A stretch of DNA of 44,590 nt from a virus. The notes under the pieces are model-generated. The model saw only the letters and a list, made by a program, of their open reading frames with translations. It was not told where the DNA came from and did no database searches. The stretch lies in IMG/VR virus record IMGVR_UViG_3300035670_000411, positions 1 to 44,590 of that record; one strand, given 5' to 3'. Numbering within the stretch: the first letter of the stretch is position 1; every line of letters starts with the position of its first letter. The position numbers and the translations under genes were made by a program. Of the stretch, positions 4,542 through 27,691 are shown one piece after another.

Positions 4542-5150
4542 ATGGCGAATACTAACGCGCCTTTCGGTTTTCGACAGATTAAGGGCACGGGTTCTGTCCC
4601 GACCTACGAGCAAAGCGTTCGCAAGATCGCCTCAAACAACACGACTGCGATTTTCTCTGGCGACGCAGTCATCCCGCTGACGACTGGCTACATTGCTCAG
4701 GCGACCGCCTCGACGGTCCGCGTTGAGGGCATTTTCGTCGGCTGCAAGTACCTCTCGGTTTCGCAGAAGCGCACGGTTTGGTCCAACTATTGGCCCGGCT
4801 CCGACGCGTCTGGCGACGTTGAGGCCTACATCATCGACGACCCGAACGCTCAGTTTGAGGTCCAGTCCAGCGACAGCGGCGGCTCTTCGCCCGTGGCGTT
4901 CGCGAACATCGGCGAGTACATCAACATCGCCGTCGGCACGGGCAACACGGCCACTGGCCAGTCCGGCATGTCGGTCAATGTTGCGACCCTCAACACGACT
5001 GTCACTCTTCCCTTCCGCATCGTCGGTCTCGTTCAGGATCCCCCGGGAGCCAATGGCACTGACATCGCGTCGGAATACAACCGAGTGATTGTCGCCTTCA
5101 ACAACGCCTCGACCCGCACCAATGGTGCCGGCCCGACTGGCATCGCCTAA
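4542..5150 (+). CDS. Probable head decoration or minor capsid protein
   Basis: I chose the ATG at 4542 because GGAGGAG stands just before it; the frame is open further upstream. The 202-residue product starts MANTNAPFGFRQIKGTGS and is rich in Ser, Thr, Gly, Asn and Val with alternating hydrophobic residues, so mainly beta. It lacks signal or membrane segments. It is transcribed as a pair with the major capsid gene 13 bases downstream, behind its own terminator and promoter. That is the classic position of a decoration or capsid-stabilising protein made at high copy. The call is from context and composition; it could instead be another abundant head protein. Confidence 0.6.
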   Translation: MANTNAPFGFRQIKGTGSVPTYEQSVRKIASNNTTAIFSGDAVIPLTTGYIAQATASTVRVEGIFVGCKYLSVSQKRTVWSNYWPGSDASGDVEAYIIDDPNAQFEVQSSDSGGSSPVAFANIGEYINIAVGTGNTATGQSGMSVNVATLNTTVTLPFRIVGLVQDPPGANGTDIASEYNRVIVAFNNASTRTNGAGPTGIA

Positions 5151-5163
5151 GGAGTAAGGACCA

Positions 5164-6075
5164 ATGGCTGTCAATCTTTCAGCAATTAAGGACCTTCTCC
5201 TGCCCGGTCTCCGTGGCATTGAAGGCAAGTACGAGCAGATCCCGTCGCAGTACGACAAGATCTTCACGAAGCATGACTCGAAGATGGCCCTCGAGCGCAC
5301 CGCTGAGATGCGCTTCCTCGGCTATGCTCAGTTGAAGACGGAAGGCGGCCAGACGTCGTTTGATAACGGCGCTGGCGAGCGTTACGTCTACAACCAAGAG
5401 CACGTCGAGATCGGCCTTGGTTACGCGATCACCCGCAAGGCGATCGACGACAACCTCTACAAGAGCCAGTTCGCTCCCTCGAACCTCGGCCTGATGGAGA
5501 GCTTCCAGCAGACCAAGGAAATCTACGGCGCGAACGTGCTCAACACGGCCACGACCTACAATGCCAACATCGGCGGCGACGGCAAGGCGCTCATTGCGAC
5601 TGACCATCCCATCGACGGCGGCACGGTCGCCAACCGGCCCACCACGGACGTCGATCTGAACGAGGCCACGCTGCTCAACGGCATGATCTCGATCCGCACG
5701 AACTTCCGCGATCAGGCCGGCCTGAAGGTGTTCGCCCGTGGGCGTCGCCTCGTGGTTCCGCCCGCCCTCGAGCCGGTTGCAATCCGTCTCACGAAGACGG
5801 AGCTGCGTCCCGGCACGGCCGACAACGACGTCAACGCGATCATGATGACCGCCGGCGGCCTGCCGGAGGGCTACATGGTCAACGACTACCTGACGTCGGC
5901 CCGCGCGTGGTTCCTGCTCACGAACATCGACGGCCTGTCCTACATGCAGCGCATCGGCTTCGAGACGGACATGCAAGTGGATTTCGTGACCGACAATCTT
6001 CTCGTAAAGGGTTACGAACGTTACTCTTTCGGTTACTACAACTGGCGTTCGATCTTCGGCTCGTTCCCGACCTGA
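5164..6075 (+). CDS. Major capsid protein, Mu gpT-like (HK97 fold)
   Basis: This 303-residue protein has the pattern of the Mu gpT-like major head subunit family. It has an N-terminal helix region followed by an E-loop-like segment (TSFDNGAGERYVYNQEHVEIG), a central LIATDHPIDGGTV segment resembling the conserved HP-containing loop of that family, and a C-terminal P-domain-like part ending in YGYYNWRSIFGSFPT-like aromatics. No N-terminal delta domain of HK97 size is evident, which fits the separate scaffold-like gene upstream. The ribosome-binding site is AAGGAG. A strong terminator follows immediately. Hundreds of copies would form the icosahedral shell. It is among the more confident structural calls in the window. 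Confidence 0.8.
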   Translation: MAVNLSAIKDLLLPGLRGIEGKYEQIPSQYDKIFTKHDSKMALERTAEMRFLGYAQLKTEGGQTSFDNGAGERYVYNQEHVEIGLGYAITRKAIDDNLYKSQFAPSNLGLMESFQQTKEIYGANVLNTATTYNANIGGDGKALIATDHPIDGGTVANRPTTDVDLNEATLLNGMISIRTNFRDQAGLKVFARGRRLVVPPALEPVAIRLTKTELRPGTADNDVNAIMMTAGGLPEGYMVNDYLTSARAWFLLTNIDGLSYMQRIGFETDMQVDFVTDNLLVKGYERYSFGYYNWRSIFGSFPT

Positions 6076-6081
6076 TTGACG

Positions 6082-6109
6082 GAGGCGGGGAGAAATCCCC
6101 GCCTCTTTT
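6082..6109 (+). terminator. Strong rho-independent terminator after major capsid gene
   Basis: GAGGCGGGG and CCCCGCCTC form a perfect 9-bp stem with loop AGAAAT, followed by TTTT. It starts 7 bases after the capsid stop codon. Confidence 0.9.
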
Positions 6110-6185
6110 CTAGGTTTCTGATCGCGTTGACCGGCCTAGCGGACGCTGCACAGACAACGTGATCCAACTCGTGCAGGAGGTTCCA

Positions 6186-6653
6186 ATGGGAACAACCACG
6201 TTCTCCGGCCCCGTAAAGGCTGGCGATATTTTTAACACCACGGGCACGACGCTCGGTCAGGACGTCGCCAACGTCGGCTTCGTCAAGATGTCCCAGTCGT
6301 CCGCCCTCACGCAGGCGACGAACGGGTCGACGCCCGGTCTCTACACGACCGACATCATCGTCCCGGCCAACTCCATGATCACGGCCATTCGCGTTTACGT
6401 GAACGTGGTTTGGAACGGGGCCGCGACGACCTTCGGCGTAGGCACGTCGGCGGCGGGCAACGAGCTTGCGGTGACGCAGGCCGGCGGCACCCTCGGCATC
6501 GTAAACGTCGCTCCGGGTGCGAGCGCGACGCTCGTCAACGCTTGGGCTGACGTCGGCACGTCTGACGTTCGCATTTACGTGTTGTCTGCAAACACCGGCA
6601 CTGGCGTGGGCTTCATCGAAGTCGAATACGTCCAGAACCGCAACATCGCCTGA
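6186..6653 (+). CDS. Beta-rich virion structural protein
   Basis: The ATG at 6186 is preferred over an upstream in-frame GTG at 6159 because AGGAGG lies 5 bases before it. The 155-residue product (MGTTTFSGPVKAGDIFNTTG) is Gly/Thr/Val/Ala-rich and predicted beta-sandwich-like, with no enzymatic motif. Its position right after the major capsid protein suggests an external head or neck protein. I cannot name the family. Confidence 0.65.
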   Translation: MGTTTFSGPVKAGDIFNTTGTTLGQDVANVGFVKMSQSSALTQATNGSTPGLYTTDIIVPANSMITAIRVYVNVVWNGAATTFGVGTSAAGNELAVTQAGGTLGIVNVAPGASATLVNAWADVGTSDVRIYVLSANTGTGVGFIEVEYVQNRNIA

Positions 6654-6665
6654 TAGGAGGCTTCC

Positions 6666-6860
6666 ATGGGTGCATACGAAGGTAAGGCTTCTACGATCAA
6701 GGAAGCCAAGGGCAAGACGGGTGGTTTCAAGAAGGGCGGCATGGCCAAGAAGGTCATGTCGCACGCAGAGAAGGAGGAGCGTCCGGCGCGCAAGAGCGGC
6801 GGCGCGGTCTTCTCGTCCGCGGCCTCGGGCACGCCCCGCGGTAAGGCTTCTCACTATTGA
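6666..6860 (+). CDS. Small basic KGG-motif protein
   Basis: This 64-residue protein starts 7 bases after AGGAGG. It is strongly basic and contains two double-glycine motifs, FKKGGMAKK and RKSGGAVF, matching those of the 400-residue protein at 972-2174. It is probably disordered and may bind DNA or another virion protein. The function is not known. Confidence 0.7.
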   Translation: MGAYEGKASTIKEAKGKTGGFKKGGMAKKVMSHAEKEERPARKSGGAVFSSAASGTPRGKASHY

Positions 6861-6863
6861 TCT

Positions 6864-6905
6864 AGGCCCCCTTCCTTGGGTCGATGGTGGGAGCGGGGGC
6901 CTTTG
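6864..6905 (+). terminator. Weak terminator-like hairpin
   Basis: AGGCCCCC (6864-6871) pairs with GGGGGCCT (6895-6902) across a 23-base loop and is followed by TTT. The long loop makes efficiency doubtful. Confidence 0.4.
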
Positions 6906-6932
6906 CGCCCCCGCACTTGCGTGGAGAGTACG

Positions 6933-7178
6933 ATGGCAAAGTCACCTGCTTGGACCCGCAAGGAGGGTAAGAGCCCCTCCGGGGGCCTGAATGAGAAGGG
7001 CCGCGCCTCTTTGCGCGCCGCGGGCCAAGACATTAAGCGCCCCCAGCCCGAGGGGGGTTCGCGAAAGAAGTCGTTCTGTGCTAGGATGACAGGCATGAAG
7101 CGAAAGCTGACCGGCTCTGCGAAGGCCGCGGATCCTGACAGCCGCATCAACAAAGCGCTGAGAAAGTGGGACTGCTGA
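6933..7178 (+). CDS. DUF6321-type small basic phage protein
   Basis: The start at 6933 follows GGAG; an upstream in-frame ATG at 6876 has no ribosome-binding site and lies in the hairpin region. The 81-residue product, MAKSPAWTRKEGKSPSGGLN to the end at RINKALRKWDC, fits a pattern I know from many phages (DUF6321). Conserved elements are W-T-R-KEGK near the start, RPQPEGGSRKKSFCARM in the middle and a C-terminal SRINKALRKWxC. It is highly basic and contains two Cys. No function is established for the family; association with DNA or with the virion is plausible from charge and from its position among structural genes. Confidence 0.8.
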   Translation: MAKSPAWTRKEGKSPSGGLNEKGRASLRAAGQDIKRPQPEGGSRKKSFCARMTGMKRKLTGSAKAADPDSRINKALRKWDC

Positions 7179-10663: not shown

Positions 10664-10867
10664 ATGGGCCTCTCGCTCGGAAATGGTTTGGCCTTCTTGG
10701 GGTTTGGGAGCTCCCGGCCCATTACCGACTGGTTCCTCGCCACTGGCGTCTGGGATCCGAGCGGCATTTGGATTGATAGCATTGCCTACCCGACTTCCCC
10801 GTTCTTCTTAGACACGGGCGTTTGGAACCCCAGCGGCTTCTGGATTGATGACGAGGTTTACCCGTGA
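10664..10867 (+). CDS. Small protein with two copies of a 24-residue WID peptide
   Basis: The 67-residue product is hydrophobic and aromatic-rich. Two copies of one unit occur 72 bases apart: FLATGVWDPSGIWIDSIAYP and FLDTGVWNPSGFWIDDEVYP. The start has no strong ribosome-binding site. Its end overlaps the GTG start of the large fibre gene by 4 bases (GTGA), so the two are probably translationally coupled. Function unknown; perhaps a fibre tip or assembly partner. Confidence 0.65.
   Translation: MGLSLGNGLAFLGFGSSRPITDWFLATGVWDPSGIWIDSIAYPTSPFFLDTGVWNPSGFWIDDEVYP
10730..10863 (+). repeat. Direct repeat of 72 bp within the WID-peptide gene
   Basis: Two diverged copies of the segment coding FL-[AD]-TGVW-[DN]-PSG-[IF]-WID are offset by exactly 72 bases, starting at 10733 and 10805. 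Confidence 0.7.
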
Positions 10868-13617
10868 CCAACATTACCACTCCCTTCGCTGGCACTGATA
10901 CGACGGCGCAGACGCAGACCAAACTGTCGTCCATTGCGAATTACTGGGCGGGCTCCAGCACGGCGCTGTCCGGCGCGGGGAGCTGGGGCGCTGTTCGCGC
11001 GATCCTCAACAACTACGCCAACGCCGCGAACCAGATCAACAACTACGAGCTGGCGTCGTCGTTCATTGACAAGCTGAACTGGCTGAACGACAGCGACAAC
11101 ATGTTCTCCGACCTGTTCGCGTTGGGCGAGGACGGGTTCTGGTACGACCCTGCTGATGCGGCGACGGTGTTTACGGACACCACGGGTTCGACCGCTGCTG
11201 TTCCGGGTAATGCGCTTGCGCTGATCTTGGACAAGCATGATGACTTGGCGCTTGGTCCTGAGCTTGTGACGAATGGCACGTTTGATAGCGGGACGACTGG
11301 TTGGAGTAGCGCAAGATCGAATTCAACCTTGTCTGTTGTTAGCGGGTCTTTGCAAGCAGAGGCTACTACCGCCTCCGCTTACGGGCCTGTAGCATCGCTG
11401 GGTGTGTTAAGTGTTGGCGTCTATAAATTATCTTTTGATTATACTATTGGATCTGGAAATTCTGATAGTTTCTTTAGGATTGCGGACGATAGCACTCTGC
11501 AAACCTCCGGAGGATTTATAGCGCCGGTTAACACAAACCTCGGAGCAGGCCCAAATAGTGGGGCCTTTGAAATAATATTTACGGTAACATCGGAAAAACA
11601 ATACTATATCGGTTTAATTGCTGCCGCAACTTCCGCTGGGAATATCATTTCTCTAGACAACGTCTCCGTCAAGGAGCTTTCCAGCTACCCCGCCACCCAA
11701 GCCACGCTCGCCGCGCGTCCTATTCTCCGCCGCGTGCCGGAGGGCGGCGTGCGGAACTTGCTGCTGTATACGGAGCAGTTTGATAATGCGGTGTGGGTTA
11801 AGAGTAGCAGTGCTGTATCTGCAAATGCAGTTATAGCTCCAGATGGTTTATTAACGGCTGACAAGCTGGAAACAAATGGCGTTCTCACCACTCACAGGAT
11901 TAGTTATGTATTATCCTTGTCGTTAGCCACATACACATTTACGCTTTACGCGCAGGCCGACGAATATGAAATTATGCTTGGTGTTTTGAAAACATCCCCA
12001 ACGGCTTTTGCAACATACGGATTTAGTCTTACCGGCTCTGGTTCTGTTGCGTGGACTAACAACAACCTAGGCGGTCGTATCTCTAGCCCAACAGCAACCA
12101 TCGAAGATGTTGGTGGTGGGTGGTATCGTTGCAGATTGACTTTTACTTCTTTAGACGCTGGGGGCTCCCTTATTATAGATTTGCAAAATGGCACAACCAA
12201 CAACTTTGCAGGGACAGCAGGTGACGGATGCTACATCTGGGGAGCGCAGCTAGAGGTCGGCTCAACCGCCACCGCCTACCAGAAGGTTACCAACGCCAAC
12301 GACGTGACCGAGGCTGGCAAGCTGTCGTTCTACAGCGCGCTGATGGATCGGATTGACGACCGTTGGTCCGTTACGCTCCCGACGATCAGCGGGACGATGG
12401 TGCTCTCGACGCCAGAGGGCACGGCTGCGTATGGCTATAGCAAGTCCTCCGGCTCGCTGGAGATTGGCGGGCACACCAACGGGCTGTACTTCCCCGGCAC
12501 TGCGCTTGTGGGCCAGATCGTGCGCGATGGCGCGATGACCAACGACGAGATCAATCGCACCGTGCAGTTCTGGAAAGCCAAGGGCGGCGGGGACGACTAC
12601 GGGACGGTGACGAACTTCAGCAATTATTGGAATAGCTGGACGGAGATTACGAGCTTCCCTGATGACATAGACACAAGCGCGGGGACGAATTTCACAGGCA
12701 CATGGTTGAACTGCACCGGCCTCACCAGCTTTCCGCTGATCGACACAAGCGCGGGGACGAATTTCACAACCACATGGTATACCTGCTCCGGCCTCACCAG
12801 CTTCCCGGCGCTTGACACAAGCTCGGGGACGAACTTCACACGCACGTGGCAGGGCTGCTCCAGTCTCACCAGTTTCCCTGTTCTCGATACGAGTGCAGGA
12901 ACAACCTTTTTTTTCGCGTGGCAGGGCTGCTCCAGTCTCACCAGTTTCCCGTTTATTGACACAGGCGCTGGGGCGACCTTCCAAAGCGCATGGCAGGGCT
13001 GCACCGGCCTCACCAGCTTCTCGGCGCTTGACACAGGCTCGGGGACAAATTTTGTTAATTCTTGGAATGGCTGCGTTGGCCTCACCAGCTTCCCGCTTAT
13101 CGACACGAGCGCGGGGACTAACTTCGGAACTACATGGTATAACTGCACCGGCCTCACTAGCTTTCCGGCGCTTGACATGAGCGCAGGGACGAGCTTCTCA
13201 GGCGCATGGCAGAACTGCACCAACCTTGCCAGCTTCCCTGTTGTTGATGTAAGCGCAGGGCAAATTTTCAACAACACATGGAATAATTGCTCTAGCCTCA
13301 CCAGCTTCCCTGCGCTTGACATAAGCTCGGGAACGAGCTTCCAAGCCACTTGGTTTAATTGCACCAGCCTCACTACGTTCCCCGCGAACATGTTCGACAC
13401 ATGCTTAGGGACAGACTTCACCAACGCTTTTACAAACACCAATCTCAGCCAAACCAGCATCGACAACATTTTGGTGAGCCTTGCAACGTCTGGTCAGTCT
13501 ACTGGCACGCGGGTGTTCAATCAGTCCGGCGGCAGCGCGCCTTCCGCCACTGGCGAGGCTGCAATCGACACGCTGCGCGGTCTCGGTTGGACTGTCACTG
13601 TAACGGGAGGCTACTAA
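10864..13617 (+). CDS. Giant tail fibre with carbohydrate-binding-like domains and ten 24-residue repeats
   Basis: A GTG start overlaps the preceding stop, with GAGG about 8 bases ahead. The 917-residue product reads as a modular fibre. Residues 1-130 look like an anchor. Around 135-270 is a jelly-roll-like module (LVTNGTFDSGTTGWSS) and around 295-470 a second (NLLLYTEQFDNAVW to YIWGAQLEVGSTATAYQ), both patterns known from phage fibres and carbohydrate-binding modules. Around 480-590 is a concanavalin-like segment ending GQIVRDGAMTNDEINRTVQF. Residues 601-840 are ten repeats of 24 residues with consensus xxDTSAGTNFxxxWxxCxxLTSFP, resembling the BspA/DUF285 type leucine-rich surface repeats. 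A cap domain follows. The two jelly-roll blocks are AT-richer than the repeats. It probably binds the host surface. Confidence 0.75.
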   Translation: MTNITTPFAGTDTTAQTQTKLSSIANYWAGSSTALSGAGSWGAVRAILNNYANAANQINNYELASSFIDKLNWLNDSDNMFSDLFALGEDGFWYDPADAATVFTDTTGSTAAVPGNALALILDKHDDLALGPELVTNGTFDSGTTGWSSARSNSTLSVVSGSLQAEATTASAYGPVASLGVLSVGVYKLSFDYTIGSGNSDSFFRIADDSTLQTSGGFIAPVNTNLGAGPNSGAFEIIFTVTSEKQYYIGLIAAATSAGNIISLDNVSVKELSSYPATQATLAARPILRRVPEGGVRNLLLYTEQFDNAVWVKSSSAVSANAVIAPDGLLTADKLETNGVLTTHRISYVLSLSLATYTFTLYAQADEYEIMLGVLKTSPTAFATYGFSLTGSGSVAWTNNNLGGRISSPTATIEDVGGGWYRCRLTFTSLDAGGSLIIDLQNGTTNNFAGTAGDGCYIWGAQLEVGSTATAYQKVTNANDVTEAGKLSFYSALMDRIDDRWSVTLPTISGTMVLSTPEGTAAYGYSKSSGSLEIGGHTNGLYFPGTALVGQIVRDGAMTNDEINRTVQFWKAKGGGDDYGTVTNFSNYWNSWTEITSFPDDIDTSAGTNFTGTWLNCTGLTSFPLIDTSAGTNFTTTWYTCSGLTSFPALDTSSGTNFTRTWQGCSSLTSFPVLDTSAGTTFFFAWQGCSSLTSFPFIDTGAGATFQSAWQGCTGLTSFSALDTGSGTNFVNSWNGCVGLTSFPLIDTSAGTNFGTTWYNCTGLTSFPALDMSAGTSFSGAWQNCTNLASFPVVDVSAGQIFNNTWNNCSSLTSFPALDISSGTSFQATWFNCTSLTTFPANMFDTCLGTDFTNAFTNTNLSQTSIDNILVSLATSGQSTGTRVFNQSGGSAPSATGEAAIDTLRGLGWTVTVTGGY
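12664..13383 (+). repeat. Ten in-frame 72-bp repeats in fibre gene
   Basis: Ten copies of exactly 72 bases, without indels, encode 24-residue units. GT-N/S-F, W, C, LTSFP and the D of the DTSAG turn are nearly invariant. The residues between F and W and between W and C differ in nearly every copy. An eleventh degenerate unit follows. Confidence 0.9.
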
Positions 13618-13618
13618 C

Positions 13619-14062
13619 ATGCGGATCACAGCAGCCTGCCCAGAGGCGATGATGTATGAGGCGAACAACCTCGCTATGTGCCTCGGCCAGTCCGCAGCGG
13701 ACGGGCTGACGTTCGTCAACATCGCGTGGCAGGACGACGACGGGAACCTCTACTCCTGCGCGTCGTTCGAGGCCAGCGAGGCTTGGATTGAGACCGCGCA
13801 GTCGCCGCTTGTGCGGCCCGAGTGGGACGTGGACGACATCATCGACATGGACGCGGCCAACGCGGCTCAGGCGGCCCTGATCTTCTGGACGCCAACCGAA
13901 GACGAGCCTGTCGCGCCGCTTGCGACGCCGGATCACCTGACGGCGATCACCGGGAACGACCCGCAGGCGTCGCTTGTTGCGATGGGGCTGAAGGCGAAGG
14001 AGGAGACGCCTCCCGAGCCAGAGCCAGAGCCCGTCGACCCATTTGACGACGAGGCACCCTGA
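13619..14062 (+). CDS. Tail-region protein of unknown function
   Basis: This 147-residue protein starts 1 base after the fibre stop codon. Its N-terminal part (MRITAACPEAMMYEANNLAM) has two Cys and a Trp/Asp-rich centre (WQDDDGNLYSCASFEASEAW). The C-terminal part is low-complexity Pro/Glu. It overlaps the adaptor gene (TGATG). I recognise it as a frequently seen neighbour of fibre genes in similar phages, but without an established role; a fibre assembly chaperone would fit. Confidence 0.65.
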   Translation: MRITAACPEAMMYEANNLAMCLGQSAADGLTFVNIAWQDDDGNLYSCASFEASEAWIETAQSPLVRPEWDVDDIIDMDAANAAQAALIFWTPTEDEPVAPLATPDHLTAITGNDPQASLVAMGLKAKEETPPEPEPEPVDPFDDEAP

Positions 14063-16551: not shown

Positions 16552-17402
16552 TGGCCGACGACAAAGTCACCATCTGGGGCGGCGGCCTGAAGTTTGGCAG
16601 GAAACCTGCCGACGGCGAGCTCTTGGTGGGCGACGGCGCGTCTTTTGAGATGACTACCCTGACGGCCGGATCCGGCGTCACAATTTTGAACACGCCCGGC
16701 GCAATCCAAATATCCGCGACGGGCAGCGGCGGCACGGTGACTGATGTCACGGCCACGTCTCCGCTGGCCTCCTCTGGCGGCGCGACGCCCGACATCTCCC
16801 TGACCGGCGCAGTCGCCGTCGCCAATGGGGGCACTGGCGCGTCCACGCTCACCGCCGAAAACGTCATTCTTGGTGACGGCACGAACCCCGTGAAATTCGT
16901 TGCTCCGGGCGCGTCGGGCAATGTCCTGACATCCAACGGCACGACGTGGGCGAGCGCCGCGCCGCCTGTCCAGTGGGAATTTCTCTACAAGACGGCCGAT
17001 CAGTCCGTCACCTCGAACAACACGACCTACGTGGACATAACCGACTTACAGTTCACCATGGCCGCGAACGAGAATTATCTCATCAGGGGCTGCCTGATCA
17101 TCAATCATTCCAGCGGCGGCTTTGAGTTTTCCTTTGATGGGCCGGCGTCTCCGACCCAGATTAACGGCACGGCGTACACGTCGAACTTGGCCGGCTTCAC
17201 GTCTCTGACCGGCGCTTACGGCAGCCTTGTCGCCGAGGCCACGGTGACAGCGGCCCAGACGTGGATGTTCAACTTCAACTTTTTTATCAAGAATGGCTCA
17301 AACACCACTCCTGACTTCACTCTCCAATTTCGGCAGAATGCTTCGTCTGCCCTTGCGACAACTGTTCGCGAGGGCTCTTGGCTGGAATGGAAACAAGTCT
17401 GA
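16551..17402 (+). CDS. Tail fibre-like protein
   Basis: The 283-residue product starts with [19 protein letters not shown]. The motif [20 protein letters not shown], widespread in phage fibres, lies near residue 90 and is followed by [17 protein letters not shown]. The C-terminal half is a beta-sandwich-like globular domain that may contact the receptor. No chaperone or protease end is seen. It is the last fibre gene before the lysis cassette. Confidence 0.7.
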
Positions 17403-17427
17403 GGGTTCTCACGAGAAGGAGCAGCAG

Positions 17428-17796
17428 ATGATGGACGCAAGAAGTGAACGCAATCTCAAGGGCGTTCACCCGCACCTCGTGAAGGTCGTGCGGCGGGCGG
17501 CAAAGAAGTCGAGCTTCATCGTGACTGAGGGGCTGCGCACGCTTGCTCGCCAGAAGCAGCTCAAGGCCGCCGGCGCGTCTCGCACTCTCAACAGCCGCCA
17601 CATCACCGGGCACGCGATCGACGTCGCCGCGCTCGTCAACGGCAAGGTGCGTTGGGATTGGCCCCTGTATCACGCCATCGCTAAGGAAATGAAGCAGGCG
17701 GCCGCTGATCTGGGCGTGCCGATCGTCTGGGGCGGCGATTGGCGCAGCTTCAAGGACGGCCCGCACTTTGAGCTGGACAGGAGGAAGTACCCATGA
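17428..17796 (+). CDS. Endolysin, M15-family peptidase
   Basis: The ATG at 17428 is chosen for AAGGAG 6 bases ahead; longer frames upstream overlap the fibre gene. The 122-residue product is a single-domain zinc peptidase of the M15/VanY type. The zinc and catalytic residues can be seen as SRHITGHAIDV (His58, Asp65) and DGPHFELD (His113). Such phage enzymes cut peptide cross-links of peptidoglycan (L-Ala-D-Glu or D-Ala bonds). There is no signal peptide, so it needs the downstream holin for release. The stop overlaps the start of the small lipoprotein gene (ATGA). Confidence 0.85.
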   Translation: MMDARSERNLKGVHPHLVKVVRRAAKKSSFIVTEGLRTLARQKQLKAAGASRTLNSRHITGHAIDVAALVNGKVRWDWPLYHAIAKEMKQAAADLGVPIVWGGDWRSFKDGPHFELDRRKYP

Positions 17797-23473: not shown

Positions 23474-26400
23474 ATGAGCGGCGGAAAGACCCAAACATCC
23501 ACACAGAAGGTCACGATCCCCCCGGAGGTCATGGCGCGCTACAACGCCGTGAACGCTCGAGCGGAGCAGGTAGCTGATCAGCCGTTCCAAGCCTACAGCT
23601 ACAACCCGAACGCCTTCGTCGCTCCCCTCACTCCAACACAAATTTCCGGCATCCAGAACGTCAATCAGACGGCCGGAATGGCGCAGCCCTATTTCAACGC
23701 CGCCTCCGCCATGACGCTCGGCGGGGCGCAGGGCGTCGGCCCCCTCACGCAGGGGCAGATTGGCTACTACCAGAGCCCGTTCACGCAGGCCGTGGTCGGC
23801 TCCACGCTGGCCGGGCTCCAGCAACAGCAGGGCCAGCAGCTCTCTCAGCAGCAGGCGGAGGCCATCAAGGCCAAGGCCTTCGGCGGCGACCGCGCCGGCA
23901 TCCAGCGCGCCCAGCTTATGGGCCAGCAGAACCTCGCGACGGTGCAGGCCATCGCGCCACTGTACCAGCAGGGCTACCAGCAGGCGGTGCAGACGGCCGC
24001 CGGGCAGCAGGGCGTCTTGGCGCAGGATCTCCAGCGCCAGCTCGCGGCTGGCCAGCAGCTCGGCGGGCTCGGTGCGAGCGCGCAGCAGGCGGCGCTTGCC
24101 GGCGCGCAGGCGCAGCTCGGCGCTGGCACCGCGGAGCAGCAGACGCAGCAGGCGGGCCTGCAGGCCCTCTACAACCAGTTCCTGCAAGAGCGCGGGTATC
24201 CCTTCCAAGTGGCGCAGTTCCTCGCGAACATCGCCATGGGGACGGGCGCGTTGTCGGGCTCGACGACAACGACAACGCAGCCTGCCCCCTTCTTCTCGGA
24301 CGAGGACAACAAGCGCAACATCCGCCAACTGGGCAAGGATTTGAACACCGGCCTCAACGTCATCGCCTACGACGACGCGGACGACCTGCGCAATGCGCGC
24401 GAGACCGGCGAGCCCATGCCGCCCAAGCGCGTCTCCTACTCCGCTCAGGAGATCGAGGAGCGCGCTCCCGGCCTCGTGAGCGAGGTCGGCGGCAACAAGG
24501 TCGTCGGCATGGCCCGCGGCGGCCTCTCGCCCTTGCAGTCCATGGGCGGGTATGTTGACCGGCCCGGCGCGTACGCGTCGGGCGGCGCGATTGTCGCCCC
24601 CGAGGAGATGCGCGCCATCTTGGCCGCGATCGGAGCCCCCTTGGAGTTCTACGGCGGCAAGGGCCTGTACGGCGGATCCCCAAAGGGCGGCGTCGGCTCG
24701 GCGGGCTACGTGCCCGCGTCGCAGATGGCGACGCCGAAGCTCGTTACGGCCGGCGGCCTCCCCCGCCCCGCGGCGAGCGGCCTGTCGCAGGCCGCCGAGA
24801 CCGGCTCCCAGATCGCTGAACTGGCCAAGATGGGCCGGTCGGCGCTTGTTGGCTCTGAAGGTGTGGGCGGCAAGAAGGGCAGCACCGGCCTGATCGGCAG
24901 CGAGGGCAGTCTTAATCAGAAGGGTTGGCTATCCTCAGGCCTTGGTGGTGGTCGGCCCGGCCCATCGAGGAGCGAGCCCCCTGCCCCGAAGGGGTCTGAC
25001 AAGATCGCTGAGATGATGCCGCAGGCCGAGTGGGACCCCAATCGCCTCTACGGCTATCGTGGCGGCCTGATGCGCGCCGGCTATGACCTTGGCGGGTCTC
25101 TGCCCTATGGGACTGACGATCAGGGCGAAGACCCCCTGAAGGAAGTCGTGAAGGAGGGCTCCAGCCAAAAGTACCAGCTCGCAACGCCCGGCAAGCCCCC
25201 GTCTCCGACACCGGGCCTCGGCTCTGAACTGTTGGGCGCGGCCAATCTGGCGAAGGCGGGGTCCAATCTCTACAGCATGCTCCCCGCCGGCCTTACTGAG
25301 GGTCTCGGGGCGGCGGCGTCGGGCCTCGGCAGCAGCCTTGCCGGGGCGGGCTCCGCAGCGGCGAGCGGGCTCGCCGGGGCCGGATCGGCTTTGGCCGCCG
25401 GCGGCGCAGAGCTTCTGGCGTTCCTGCCCTTCATATTCTCCGACGAGCGCATGAAGGAGAACGCGGAGCCGGTGGGCAAACTGTACGACGGGCAGCAAAT
25501 CTATCGCTACAACATGAAGGGCTCGCCCAAGACGCAGCTCGGCTTGATGGCGCAGGACGTCGAGCGCGACGGCCACGGCGACGCGGTGGCGGGTCTGGGC
25601 GGCCTGAAGATGGTCGACTACAAGCGCGCCACGGACGTGGCCGCGGGCCTTGCTGGGCGCAACCGTGCGTACCGCGGGGGCTATCAAGAGGGCGGCCTCG
25701 CCGAGGAGGATCTGCCGGCGCTTGGCGCAATTGAAGTCAAGCGAAGAGACCCCTCCGAGTTTGCGGAAACCATAAATTCTGCCGCGAAACAGTACGGTGT
25801 TGATCCACGCATTCTTCGGGCGCTTATCCAGCGCGAGAGCGGCTTCGACCCAGAGGCAGTTGGCACGGTCGGCGAGATTGGTTTGGGTCAGATCAAGCCG
25901 TCAACGGCGAGGGACCCGGGCTATGGGGTTCGGCCAGTGGCGGTTGAAGACCTTCGTAAGCCGGAAGTTAACATTCCGTTTGCGGCTGAATATTTGTCTA
26001 AGAAAGCACGCCATCTCGGGCACGACCCGAATAGCATGGAAGCCTTGATGGCTTACAACGCGGGGTCCAAGGCAAGAGAATATGCGCAAGCCGTAATGAA
26101 TACTGCTGGCCTTGGTGGGGGTAGACTGCCCCCAAGAACTCCAACAACAAGCCCGGAAAGATCGACTGCCGGCGTTGCCGGTGCCCAACGTTTTGAAGGT
26201 GTACGCAGTCCTTCGCGGCAAGGTCTCTCAGCCAGACCGGGCGTGTTGTCCGAGACACCAGAGAATGCGCCCATAAGACAACTTTTTGGGCCTCTATTTG
26301 GCGGGATGTCGCCGGAAACACGGCAGGCATTAACGTCCGAGAACTTCTGGGTCCCGGCGCTGGCCGGCATCGGCTCGATGCTGGCGTCGCGCTCTCCGTT

Positions 26401-27691
26401 CCTCGGCAGCGCGATCGGCGAGGGCCTTGTCGGCGGCACGAGAGCATACACTGACCTGCAAAAGCAGCAGGCCGAAGTTGAAAGCAAGAAAGCTGGGATC
26501 GAAAACGTCGGCGCGCAGACCATTAAGACTGAGCAAGAAACTTTGCAGTCGAGCCTGCAGTCGCTTCCGAACGGCATGGCTATTGTGTGGACGGCGGATG
26601 GTAATCCGGTCCCGCTTGGCGACTACATGGATCTCAAGAAGAACAATCGCGCCCCGCCGCTGCTTGGTCGCGTGCCGCGAAATGCAGAACAGATACTTTT
26701 TGAGAAGTTTCCGGAGCTCAAGAAAACTCGGCTGCCCGAAGGAGCCGGCTCAGGCACATCATCTCAGTTGATTGAGCAACCCAAGACAAGAAAGGACACA
26801 ATCGTTCCACCTGCTACTGACAAAATCGTTCCACCTGCTACTGACACAACCGTTCCACCTGCTACTGACACAACCGTTCCACCTGCTACTGACACAACCG
26901 TTCCACCTGCGCAGAAGCAGACGCCTGTCATGCCGAGCGGCATATATTTTGACGAGAAGTCTCAAGAGACCGCGAGAGAAGAGCGCAACACCATCCTGAA
27001 TGGGGGCCCCGGGGCCCAGACGCTCCAAGCCGCGTCGAAGGATTATGTCGATAAAGTTACATCCGCCGGAACCGCTGCGAGAGACACTTCGCGTTTCTTG
27101 AGTGCGCTGGCTGAAAACCTCTCTAACGCGGCGCAGGGCAAGGGTCTTGACGTTGCGGGCTTTGGTTTCAACCCTAGAGCCGAAATTATCAATGCCCTTA
27201 ACACGTTCTCGAGAGCCTTTGGTGGTCCAGAATTTGGAAACGCTGAGGGGATTAAACAAATCAACGAGAAAATTTCTGCTCTGCAAGCGGCGGCGGCGAC
27301 AAAAAGCGTTGGGCAAGAAAGCTATGCTGCGCTTGAGTTGATGAAGAATGCGATCGCAAACCCCTCAATGAAGCCCCGCGTATTCGCAAAATTGTCGGGA
27401 GATCTCATGGCGCAGAACCAGCGCATGATTGACCGCTATAACCACTTTGAGGCCTATACGAAAGCTTCTACAGTTGGCGCTGGCAAGGCTCAAAGCGACT
27501 TCTCGCGCCTACACAACGACGCGAAATATGAGAAAGAAGCACAAGCAATCGCCAATCTTGTTTTGACTTCGCCCGGGCTGCTCAAAGATTTCCGTTCGGG
27601 CAAATACACGGCAGAGGAGATTGATGAAGCTTTCAAGAAGTCGAAATACAAGCTTGAAGGCATGAGCCGTTACTTCTTGGGAGGCCGCTGA
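23474..27691 (+). CDS. Very large internal/ejection protein with lytic transglycosylase and two S74-like segments
   Basis: The 1405-residue product is probably ejected with the DNA. Residues 1-270 are Gln/Ala-rich helices. An S74-like segment begins at FSDEDNKRNI (Ser275). A second begins at FSDERMKENA (Ser656) and includes QIYRYNMKGSPKTQLGLMAQ, the usual pattern of the intramolecular chaperone of endosialidase. Residues about 768-885 are a lytic transglycosylase domain (catalytic Glu788 in QRESGF, then GEIGLGQIKPS and LMAYNAGSK), which would open peptidoglycan. Beyond 900 are helical regions, an 8-residue VPPATD repeat and a coiled coil. Several GG motifs (MARGGL, YASGGAI, YQEGGLA) are present. 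The stop overlaps the next start. Confidence 0.8.
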   Translation: MSGGKTQTSTQKVTIPPEVMARYNAVNARAEQVADQPFQAYSYNPNAFVAPLTPTQISGIQNVNQTAGMAQPYFNAASAMTLGGAQGVGPLTQGQIGYYQSPFTQAVVGSTLAGLQQQQGQQLSQQQAEAIKAKAFGGDRAGIQRAQLMGQQNLATVQAIAPLYQQGYQQAVQTAAGQQGVLAQDLQRQLAAGQQLGGLGASAQQAALAGAQAQLGAGTAEQQTQQAGLQALYNQFLQERGYPFQVAQFLANIAMGTGALSGSTTTTTQPAPFFSDEDNKRNIRQLGKDLNTGLNVIAYDDADDLRNARETGEPMPPKRVSYSAQEIEERAPGLVSEVGGNKVVGMARGGLSPLQSMGGYVDRPGAYASGGAIVAPEEMRAILAAIGAPLEFYGGKGLYGGSPKGGVGSAGYVPASQMATPKLVTAGGLPRPAASGLSQAAETGSQIAELAKMGRSALVGSEGVGGKKGSTGLIGSEGSLNQKGWLSSGLGGGRPGPSRSEPPAPKGSDKIAEMMPQAEWDPNRLYGYRGGLMRAGYDLGGSLPYGTDDQGEDPLKEVVKEGSSQKYQLATPGKPPSPTPGLGSELLGAANLAKAGSNLYSMLPAGLTEGLGAAASGLGSSLAGAGSAAASGLAGAGSALAAGGAELLAFLPFIFSDERMKENAEPVGKLYDGQQIYRYNMKGSPKTQLGLMAQDVERDGHGDAVAGLGGLKMVDYKRATDVAAGLAGRNRAYRGGYQEGGLAEEDLPALGAIEVKRRDPSEFAETINSAAKQYGVDPRILRALIQRESGFDPEAVGTVGEIGLGQIKPSTARDPGYGVRPVAVEDLRKPEVNIPFAAEYLSKKARHLGHDPNSMEALMAYNAGSKAREYAQAVMNTAGLGGGRLPPRTPTTSPERSTAGVAGAQRFEGVRSPSRQGLSARPGVLSETPENAPIRQLFGPLFGGMSPETRQALTSENFWVPALAGIGSMLASRSPFLGSAIGEGLVGGTRAYTDLQKQQAEVESKKAGIENVGAQTIKTEQETLQSSLQSLPNGMAIVWTADGNPVPLGDYMDLKKNNRAPPLLGRVPRNAEQILFEKFPELKKTRLPEGAGSGTSSQLIEQPKTRKDTIVPPATDKIVPPATDTTVPPATDTTVPPATDTTVPPAQKQTPVMPSGIYFDEKSQETAREERNTILNGGPGAQTLQAASKDYVDKVTSAGTAARDTSRFLSALAENLSNAAQGKGLDVAGFGFNPRAEIINALNTFSRAFGGPEFGNAEGIKQINEKISALQAAAATKSVGQESYAALELMKNAIANPSMKPRVFAKLSGDLMAQNQRMIDRYNHFEAYTKASTVGAGKAQSDFSRLHNDAKYEKEAQAIANLVLTSPGLLKDFRSGKYTAEEIDEAFKKSKYKLEGMSRYFLGGR
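26798..26911 (+). repeat. 24-bp tandem repeat (VPPATD minisatellite)
   Basis: Four full copies and one partial copy of a 24-base unit encode [TK]-[TI]-VPPATD inside the ejection-protein gene. Copies three and four are identical; copies one and two differ by a few bases. Expansion or loss by slippage would keep the frame. Confidence 0.9.

Follow-up and report, generated by a model that had tools for sequence, protein, structure and literature searches.

A leucine-rich-repeat array with a hypervariable strip in a putative phage adhesin gene

The stretch of DNA analysed here, hereafter the window, is a virus record of 44,590 bases (IMGVR_UViG_3300035670_000411, positions 1 to 44,590). Our subject is a gene on its plus strand, at 10,864 to 13,617, which starts with GTG and encodes a fibre-like, putative virion protein of 917 residues with N-terminal modules and a C-terminal array of leucine-rich repeats (LRRs). 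A second record, L001, with 58,558 bases, is identical to the window across 12,795 compared bases, which makes it probable that the window belongs to a larger phage genome. A Pfam scan of the protein gave no family at E ≤ 1. PHROG 34853, a family of phage proteins listed with unknown function, matches it with an E value of 4.4e-81, the best stretch being residues 296 to 686, and PHROG 5939, annotated as tail protein, matches residues 298 to 478 (E 2e-24). These latter residues (11,755 to 12,297, plus strand) are a module common to tail or fibre proteins of other phages, and tblastn against phage records found it in Azospirillum, Rhodobacter and Rhizobium phages (Azospirillum Cd, RcapMu and P106B) and in Nonlabens phages P12024S and P12024L. 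The array itself, at 12,670 to 13,389 (residues 603 to 842), consists of ten repeats of 72 bp, or 24 residues, in which codons 9, 10 and 13, and to a lesser extent 14, are hypervariable. It is followed at 13,390 to 13,614 by a degenerate last turn and a C-terminal cap, together 75 residues, seen in the sequence and the structural model and alignable among relatives.

We number the unit D1 T2 S3 A4 G5 T6 N7 F8 x9 x10 A/T11 W12 x13 x14 C15 x x L18 T19 S20 F21 P22 x I24. An earlier note on this DNA had described ten exact-length 72-bp repeats in a large fibre gene, and all ten units are indeed in frame and have 24 residues; it had placed the array at 12,664 to 13,383, which is 6 nt early, and the ten strings of variable residues that it gave around the tryptophan are all correct. 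D1, G5, F8, W12, C15, L18 and F21 are invariant in the ten copies. Seven distinct residues occur at each of positions 9 and 10 and five at 13, followed by four each at 2, 7, 23 and 24, three each at 6, 11, 14, 16 and 17, and two each at 3, 4, 19, 20 and 22. The claim that nearly all copies differ at four or five positions was therefore somewhat overstated, since three vary strongly and 11 and 14 only moderately. Likewise the segment D-T-S-A-G-T-N-F, said to be almost fixed, is so at D1, G5 and F8 and less so at the positions between them. Tandem Repeats Finder scores the array 374 at period 72 and 522 at period 216. The DNA pattern for W-x2-C-x2-L-T-S-F-P has eight exact matches in the window and none in each of 100 shuffles, and a chance origin of the repeats is excluded.

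The same pattern of variable positions is found far beyond the window. Viral contigs were scanned with a DNA pattern for T-x-F-x3-W-x2-C-x2-L-T-S-F-P, and at least 120 stretches matched. With the window copies L001 and L002 dropped, 128 scanned sequences (the viral stretches listed plus phage loci) gave 939 units (836 when duplicates are counted once), which form 146 runs with between 1 and 25 units each. Neighbouring units lie 24 residues apart in 762 of 798 pairs, a figure favoured by the unit finder, which extends in 24-residue steps. Entropy over the 939 units is highest at positions 9, 10 and 13 (3.66, 3.56 and 3.47 bits), followed by 14 (2.80), 7 (2.64) and 4 (2.52). When one unit was taken per array, leaving out the window and arrays of fewer than three units, the 99 remaining arrays gave 3.50, 3.50 and 3.35 bits at 9, 10 and 13, and 2.72, 2.61 and 2.39 bits at 14, 7 and 4. 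Because the same positions lead in these 99 other arrays, the pattern seen in the window is a property of the family. The fixed core with variable positions that had been noticed in one gene is thus general, and related phages do differ at these codons; identical residues regardless of host were not observed.

For each array we compared the proportion of nonsynonymous differences (pN) at codons 9, 10 and 13 with the proportion of synonymous differences (pS) in the framework, dropping the first and last units and arrays of fewer than six units and counting identical arrays once. pN at the variable codons exceeds framework pS in 51 of 59 distinct arrays, with medians of 0.682 and 0.495, against a median framework pN of 0.185. 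Arrays with little synonymous divergence have the largest excess: eleven young arrays with pS of 0.03 to 0.19 have pN of 0.32 to 0.70 at these codons, for example L117 (0.32 versus 0.03), L126 (0.40 versus 0.10), L098 (0.59 versus 0.11) and L123 (0.70 versus 0.15). L011 and L072 are a collinear pair with nine units apiece; at 9, 10 and 13 they differ in 23 of 27 residues, versus 21 of 180 framework residues (position 14 set apart), and 60 of 159 unchanged framework codons carry a synonymous change. Because change at 9, 10 and 13 exceeds framework synonymous change in most arrays, and most of all in the young ones, these comparisons support diversifying selection acting at these positions across the family.

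The array is confidently predicted to be an LRR solenoid. An AlphaFold2 model of residues 587 to 917, built from 30 sequences (the window and 29 relatives from viral contigs), has a mean predicted local distance difference test score (pLDDT) of 90.9 and a predicted TM-score (pTM) of 0.87. A fragment model that begins at F8 in unit 3 and ends at C15 in unit 9 (152 residues, 33 sequences) reaches 93.0 and 0.87. The cap region of the larger model contains helices at 277 to 289 and 309 to 320 and strands at 265 to 270, 297 to 301 and 323 to 326 (model numbering). VIA realignment of the larger model to the LRR domain of plant RPP1 gave Z 23.5, with a root-mean-square deviation (rmsd) of 2.9 over 299 residues, and the fragment matched RPP1 (Z 16.5), SHOC2 (15.5), 6mlx (15.1) and the BspA-like structures 4h09 (14.6) and 4fs7 (13.6). 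We take these matches in the Protein Data Bank (PDB) to be LRR proteins. On the Treponema TpLRR crystal structure 6mlx_B the fragment superposes with an rmsd of 2.4 Å over 146 of 152 residues; because other LRR classes match too, RPP1 more strongly, this superposition speaks for the LRR fold rather than for the TpLRR class. Viral models that matched include S-SKS1, S-CAM8 and BspA-family phage proteins. Among 30 relatives scanned at E ≤ 1, Pfam LRR_5 (PF13306) matches four (best 3.6e-7), DUF285 (PF03382) two (best 2.9e-5) and TIGR02167 (PARCEL) nine (best 9e-6), while the window protein and its array gave no match to any of these three profiles. Other names in these scans, namely Periviscerokin (four), Dit_C (four) and BppU-like_C (three, best 1.2e-7) in Pfam and VPEID-CTERM (eight) and others in NCBIfam, are read as matches to repeats or to other modules. 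Taken together, the models, the PDB matches and the profile matches of relatives support a solenoid related to BspA/TpLRR/DUF285 (PARCEL) repeats, as the earlier note had supposed.

A closer look at the TpLRR class is instructive. Passages of one report give a repeat of 23 to 25 residues with the consensus LxxLxLxxxLxxIgxxAFxx(C/N)xx (PMC2946307). All ten units fall within this length, and L18-x-x-F21 and A/T/S11-W12-x-x-C15 fit the consensus, whereas the distance between F8 and A11 falls one residue short of the corresponding I to A and no hydrophobic residue stands at consensus L10. The end points of the fragment on 6mlx, 81 and 226, and the 23-residue cysteine spacing of 6mlx (counted by hand, with a numbering offset assumed) fit an in-phase match, so that F-x-x-A-W-x-x-C of our unit would align with x-x-x-A-F-x-x-C of 6mlx. 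The turns of a solenoid are stacked in register, and the residues at 9, 10, 13 and 14 are therefore expected to line up from turn to turn into an unbroken strip on one face or the other. The register from the TpLRR literature puts the strand at 18 to 23 and the variable residues on the convex side, with F8, A11, W12 and C15 spaced i, i+3, i+4 and i+7. The register from RPP1 and variable lymphocyte receptor (VLR) profiles, together with the RPP1 match end point, conflicts with it: C15 falls on the C of LxxLxLxxC, and the variable residues lie at or beside the concave face. Strand residues assigned by DSSP occur at unit position 7 (in ten turns; in six of the fragment), at 20 to 21, 24 and 1 and twice at 4, and nowhere from 9 to 14, which fits neither register decisively. 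Charged, polar and aromatic residues mix freely at the variable positions, which speaks against a location in the core, and we infer that the strip points outward, on a face that differs between the two registers.

How the arrays change can be followed in near-identical phages. Across 4.5 kb, made up of 4 kb ahead of the gene and its first 500 bases, L130 (the L040 contig) and L132 have 99.5% identity, and 20 of the 22 units of L130 recur exactly in L132, identical in DNA. The difference amounts to a gain of three units and a loss of one: where L130 has one particular unit L132 has four, the fourth being the L130 unit with a single synonymous base changed, and another unit of L130 is absent. 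L130 and L133 (the L121 contig) are 99.6% identical over the same 4.5 kb and have no unit in common; none of the ten regular units of L133 before its contig end is among the 22 of L130, and one residue triplet at 9, 10 and 13 is common to both. This difference is best read as replacement of the array by homologous recombination rather than rapid mutation, because L132, at a similar distance, retains the codons of L130. The earlier note had supposed that recombination could quickly change the length and specificity of the array, and here changes of both length and content are seen. Hypermutation was considered for L040 and L121, in which all 14 codons that differ among the first 197 change the amino acid, and was set aside in favour of array replacement, as L131 and L132 keep the L040 array at similar distance. 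A single Nonlabens strain yielded both P12024S and P12024L, yet these phages differ by a unit of 23 residues and at many of the variable positions, so variation there does not simply follow the host. As a separate observation, L047 and L062 are identical through 815 residues including the array, yet 24 of 101 cap residues differ, which the sequences place as a recombination breakpoint at the array end.

The setting of the gene points to the virion. In the window the major capsid gene (5,164 to 6,075) is followed by the array gene and then by the endolysin gene (17,293 to 17,796). tblastn found the repeats in P12024S and P12024L, Synechococcus phages S-CBWM1 and S-SKS1 and a Mediterranean fosmid phage (MedDCM), and Klebsiella, Listeria and Butyrivibrio phages match them at 27 to 35% identity. 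Virion genes also surround the homologue in P12024S, S-CBWM1, S-SKS1 and the fosmid phage. The window gene thus combines a place among virion genes with tail-protein homology, the two features by which a tail fibre or receptor-binding protein is recognised, and because its homologues lie likewise, it likely encodes a virion adhesin.

We suggest, with a probability of about 0.68, that the protein is a virion adhesin with an LRR solenoid whose strip of residues 9, 10, 13 and 14 is a receptor-binding surface. The N-terminal modules would attach it to the particle in the manner of a tail fibre, and the C-terminus would form ten regular turns of the BspA/TpLRR/DUF285 kind, their core built by F8, A/T11, W12, C15, L18, F21 and I/L24. 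Residues 9, 10, 13 and 14 would point outward and, stacked over ten turns, make the continuous strip that contacts the host receptor. The strip would be under diversifying selection while purifying selection keeps the frame. New specificities could then come from amino-acid change at these codons, from 72-bp units being gained or lost as wholes, and from homologous recombination that swaps entire arrays between related phages. Taken together, the place of the gene among virion genes, the strip repeated from turn to turn and the pattern of selection make receptor binding, in our view, the best explanation.

Several observations weigh against this proposal. We looked for binding or virion proteomics data for the protein and found none. 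Though diversifying selection is supported family-wide, the window array by itself gives only a weak signal, with pN of 0.65 at the variable codons versus framework pS of 0.54; the window gene alone does not demonstrate positive selection. The array is an old one, and its signal has come close to saturation. A search of the N-terminal neighbourhood for population relatives yielded only the same contig again, and the sole near relative found (L001) is the same virus, which leaves no population to compare for this gene. Elsewhere, 8 of 59 arrays have no excess of pN over pS, and the pairs L047/L062 (0 of 21), L072/L096 (0 of 27) and L021/L055 (0 of 6), near-identical through the array, do not differ at 9, 10 and 13. 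Between P12024S and P12024L the array gene lies in a generally divergent stretch and carries many synonymous changes as well, so the pair offers no clean test. On the structural side, Foldseek against the PDB gave just three matches at E ≤ 0.001, with TM-scores near 0.3. Finally, the collecting pattern fixes T6, F8, W12, C15, L18, T19, F21 and P22, and conservation there is partly by construction; the variability at positions outside the pattern is not.

It could be argued that the variable residues are merely exposed, unconstrained positions that drift neutrally, with neither diversifying selection nor a role in binding. The near-equality of pN and pS in the window and the eight arrays without excess are what drift would give. 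The excess in the 51 other arrays, about tenfold in the youngest (L117, four units), is not. In a star simulation of single codons, a ratio of nonsynonymous to synonymous rates (omega) of 1 keeps first- and second-base diversity at or below 0.28 up to a neutral divergence of 0.31, and omega of about 3 to 10 is needed for the observed 0.6 to 0.7. Neutral drift is thus already disfavoured, and we consider it quite improbable. Alternatively, the strip may bind something other than the adsorption receptor, either in a decoration of the capsid or particle by which the phage adheres to cells, mucus or debris, or in an intracellular protein directed at varying host targets. LRR domains bind many things, the S-SKS1 gene lies between a capsid assembly gene and a prohead protease gene, and the P12024S array gene comes four genes after the portal gene. 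Against this, genes for tail sheath and tube also lie near the S-SKS1 gene, in S-CBWM1 the homologue bears the annotation putative tail protein and has tail fibre genes close by, and the tail-protein module is common to the window and P12024. We therefore hold such other binding to be unlikely.

A diversity-generating retroelement (DGR), or a similar targeted mutator, could also rewrite the variable codons. This reading was raised by their seemingly fixed third bases: diversity is close to saturation at the first and second bases, but lower at the third than codon usage would lead one to expect (mean 0.36 to 0.41 versus 0.67 to 0.69 in 25 arrays). Selection at omega of about 3 to 10 reproduces the mean base pattern in the simulation, with third-base diversity close to the observed mean though not to the near-zero values of some arrays; L125, L106, L070, L089 and L040 (position 9) have values of 0 to 0.15, below the simulated 0.4 or so, for which neither codon usage nor the simulation accounts. 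The Pfam RVT_1 profile found no reverse transcriptase in 93 of 94 virus or phage records, many of them fragments, including the window and its longer contig. In the sole exception, L045, the template and variable repeat pair involves a different gene, with 18 of 20 differences at template adenines, and the template does not pair with the record's own 18-unit array gene at 4,965 to 7,103 (the template repeat was looked for in L045 only). The identity in DNA of the 20 units common to L130 and L132 also argues against a mutator. On these grounds the retroelement reading was set aside as very unlikely for the arrays. L045 is of interest in its own right: its reverse transcriptase lies at 1,530 to 2,513 (E 1.6e-24) and the template at 1,256 to 1,376 pairs with the end of another gene at 725 to 845, so that a retroelement aimed at a neighbouring gene and a separate LRR array gene stand side by side as two routes of diversification.

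Phage host range is usually discussed in terms of trimeric beta-helical fibres or of C-type-lectin tips with retroelement mutators. DGRs of phages place hypervariable residues on a fixed scaffold; the arrays differ from them in that a mutator was not found, in having repeats instead of a single variable region, and in the gain and loss of whole units. Variable residues beside a fixed LRR core are also a feature of the VLRs of jawless fish and of the LRRs of plant nucleotide-binding LRR receptors (NLRs). In profile alignments with VLR and NLR repeats, the variable positions of the array fall near x2, x3, x7 and x8 of LxxLxLxxN/C, though this register conflicts with that of the TpLRR literature. 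We do not claim homology, and VLRs assemble somatically. By analogy, and only tentatively, since we think it rather less probable than its opposite, the arrays may be a phage counterpart of the VLR: a widespread LRR platform with three or four recognition residues per turn, changed by point selection, duplication and array swapping without a dedicated mutator.

Among repeat families, the closest in character are the DUF285/TIGR02167 repeats or PARCELs, which passages of one paper describe as tandem repeats of about 25 residues in surface proteins of bacteria and eukaryotes with conserved hydrophobic and extensively variable hydrophilic residues, occasional block duplications and horizontal spread (PMC2996958). 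Outside phages, DUF285-type repeats were thus already known (2010) to combine a fixed frame with variable polar residues. Our arrays differ in lying in phage virion genes, in a 24-residue unit with Trp and L-T-S-F-P and in variability concentrated at 9, 10 and 13, and the window matches neither the DUF285 nor the TIGR02167 model. They are like TpLRR/BspA-type repeats (LRR_5, PF13306) in unit length, the A-F/W-x-x-C/N motif and the LRR fold, and unlike them in the F8-A11 spacing shifted by one, in Trp for Phe and in the missing Pfam match of the window. Phage proteins annotated as BspA family LRR, DUF285 or 26-residue repeat also carry tandem LRRs, for example in BFVD entries of Klebsiella phage N1M2 and Aeromonas phage D3; ORFs 200 and 287 (open reading frames) of jumbo Vibrio phage pir03 are known by such annotation, and the passages that name them do not describe a variable strip (PMC7765460). 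The FGxxFN LRRs of giant viruses have two most-variable positions per turn and were likened to VLRs (PMC9525666); these CroV and Dictyostelium (FNIP) repeats differ from ours in a 22-residue unit and in belonging to giant virus and amoeba proteins of little-known function. A literature search over titles, abstract openings and some passages gave no account of the 24-residue repeat or its variable strip in phages, nor of variability confined to 9, 10 and 13, a synonymous-change test or array exchange between near-identical phages. What is new is the phage version, the sharply placed strip, the selection test and the array exchange. With a fixed-frame scaffold, few free positions per turn and 99 distinct arrays besides the window, sequence can be mapped readably onto a candidate binding surface. 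If the strip is indeed the receptor contact, host-range differences could be searched for directly in environmental sequence, and the scaffold would be a natural modular binder.

Directly after the stop of the fibre gene a protein of 147 residues begins (13,619 to 14,062, plus strand). Its homologues, with 49 to 56% identity among the matches listed, occupy the same place behind the array genes of other phages, and it belongs to a connected cluster of 15 among 90 ORFs downstream of array genes. No PHROG family matched it at E ≤ 0.01, and its only Pfam match was far below the cut-off. Possibly it is a dedicated chaperone or partner of the fibre. At 16 of the 90 array-gene loci, the naively called start of the downstream ORF overlaps the fibre stop by one base. 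Elsewhere in the window, a 24-bp tandem repeat (26,795 to 26,910, 4.8 copies, 96% matches) lies inside a gene for 1,405 residues at 23,474 to 27,691, which also has SLT lysozyme-like and endosialidase-chaperone (S74) domains. A scan of genome contigs gave 13 stretches, on bacterial and archaeal contigs of metagenome-assembled genomes, and 8 of them contain at least one clear 24-residue unit by regular expression (L136, L137, L138, L140, L142, L143, L144 and L146, with L136 and L144 being one contig). Six of these eight are from Planctomycetota, Kuenenia included.

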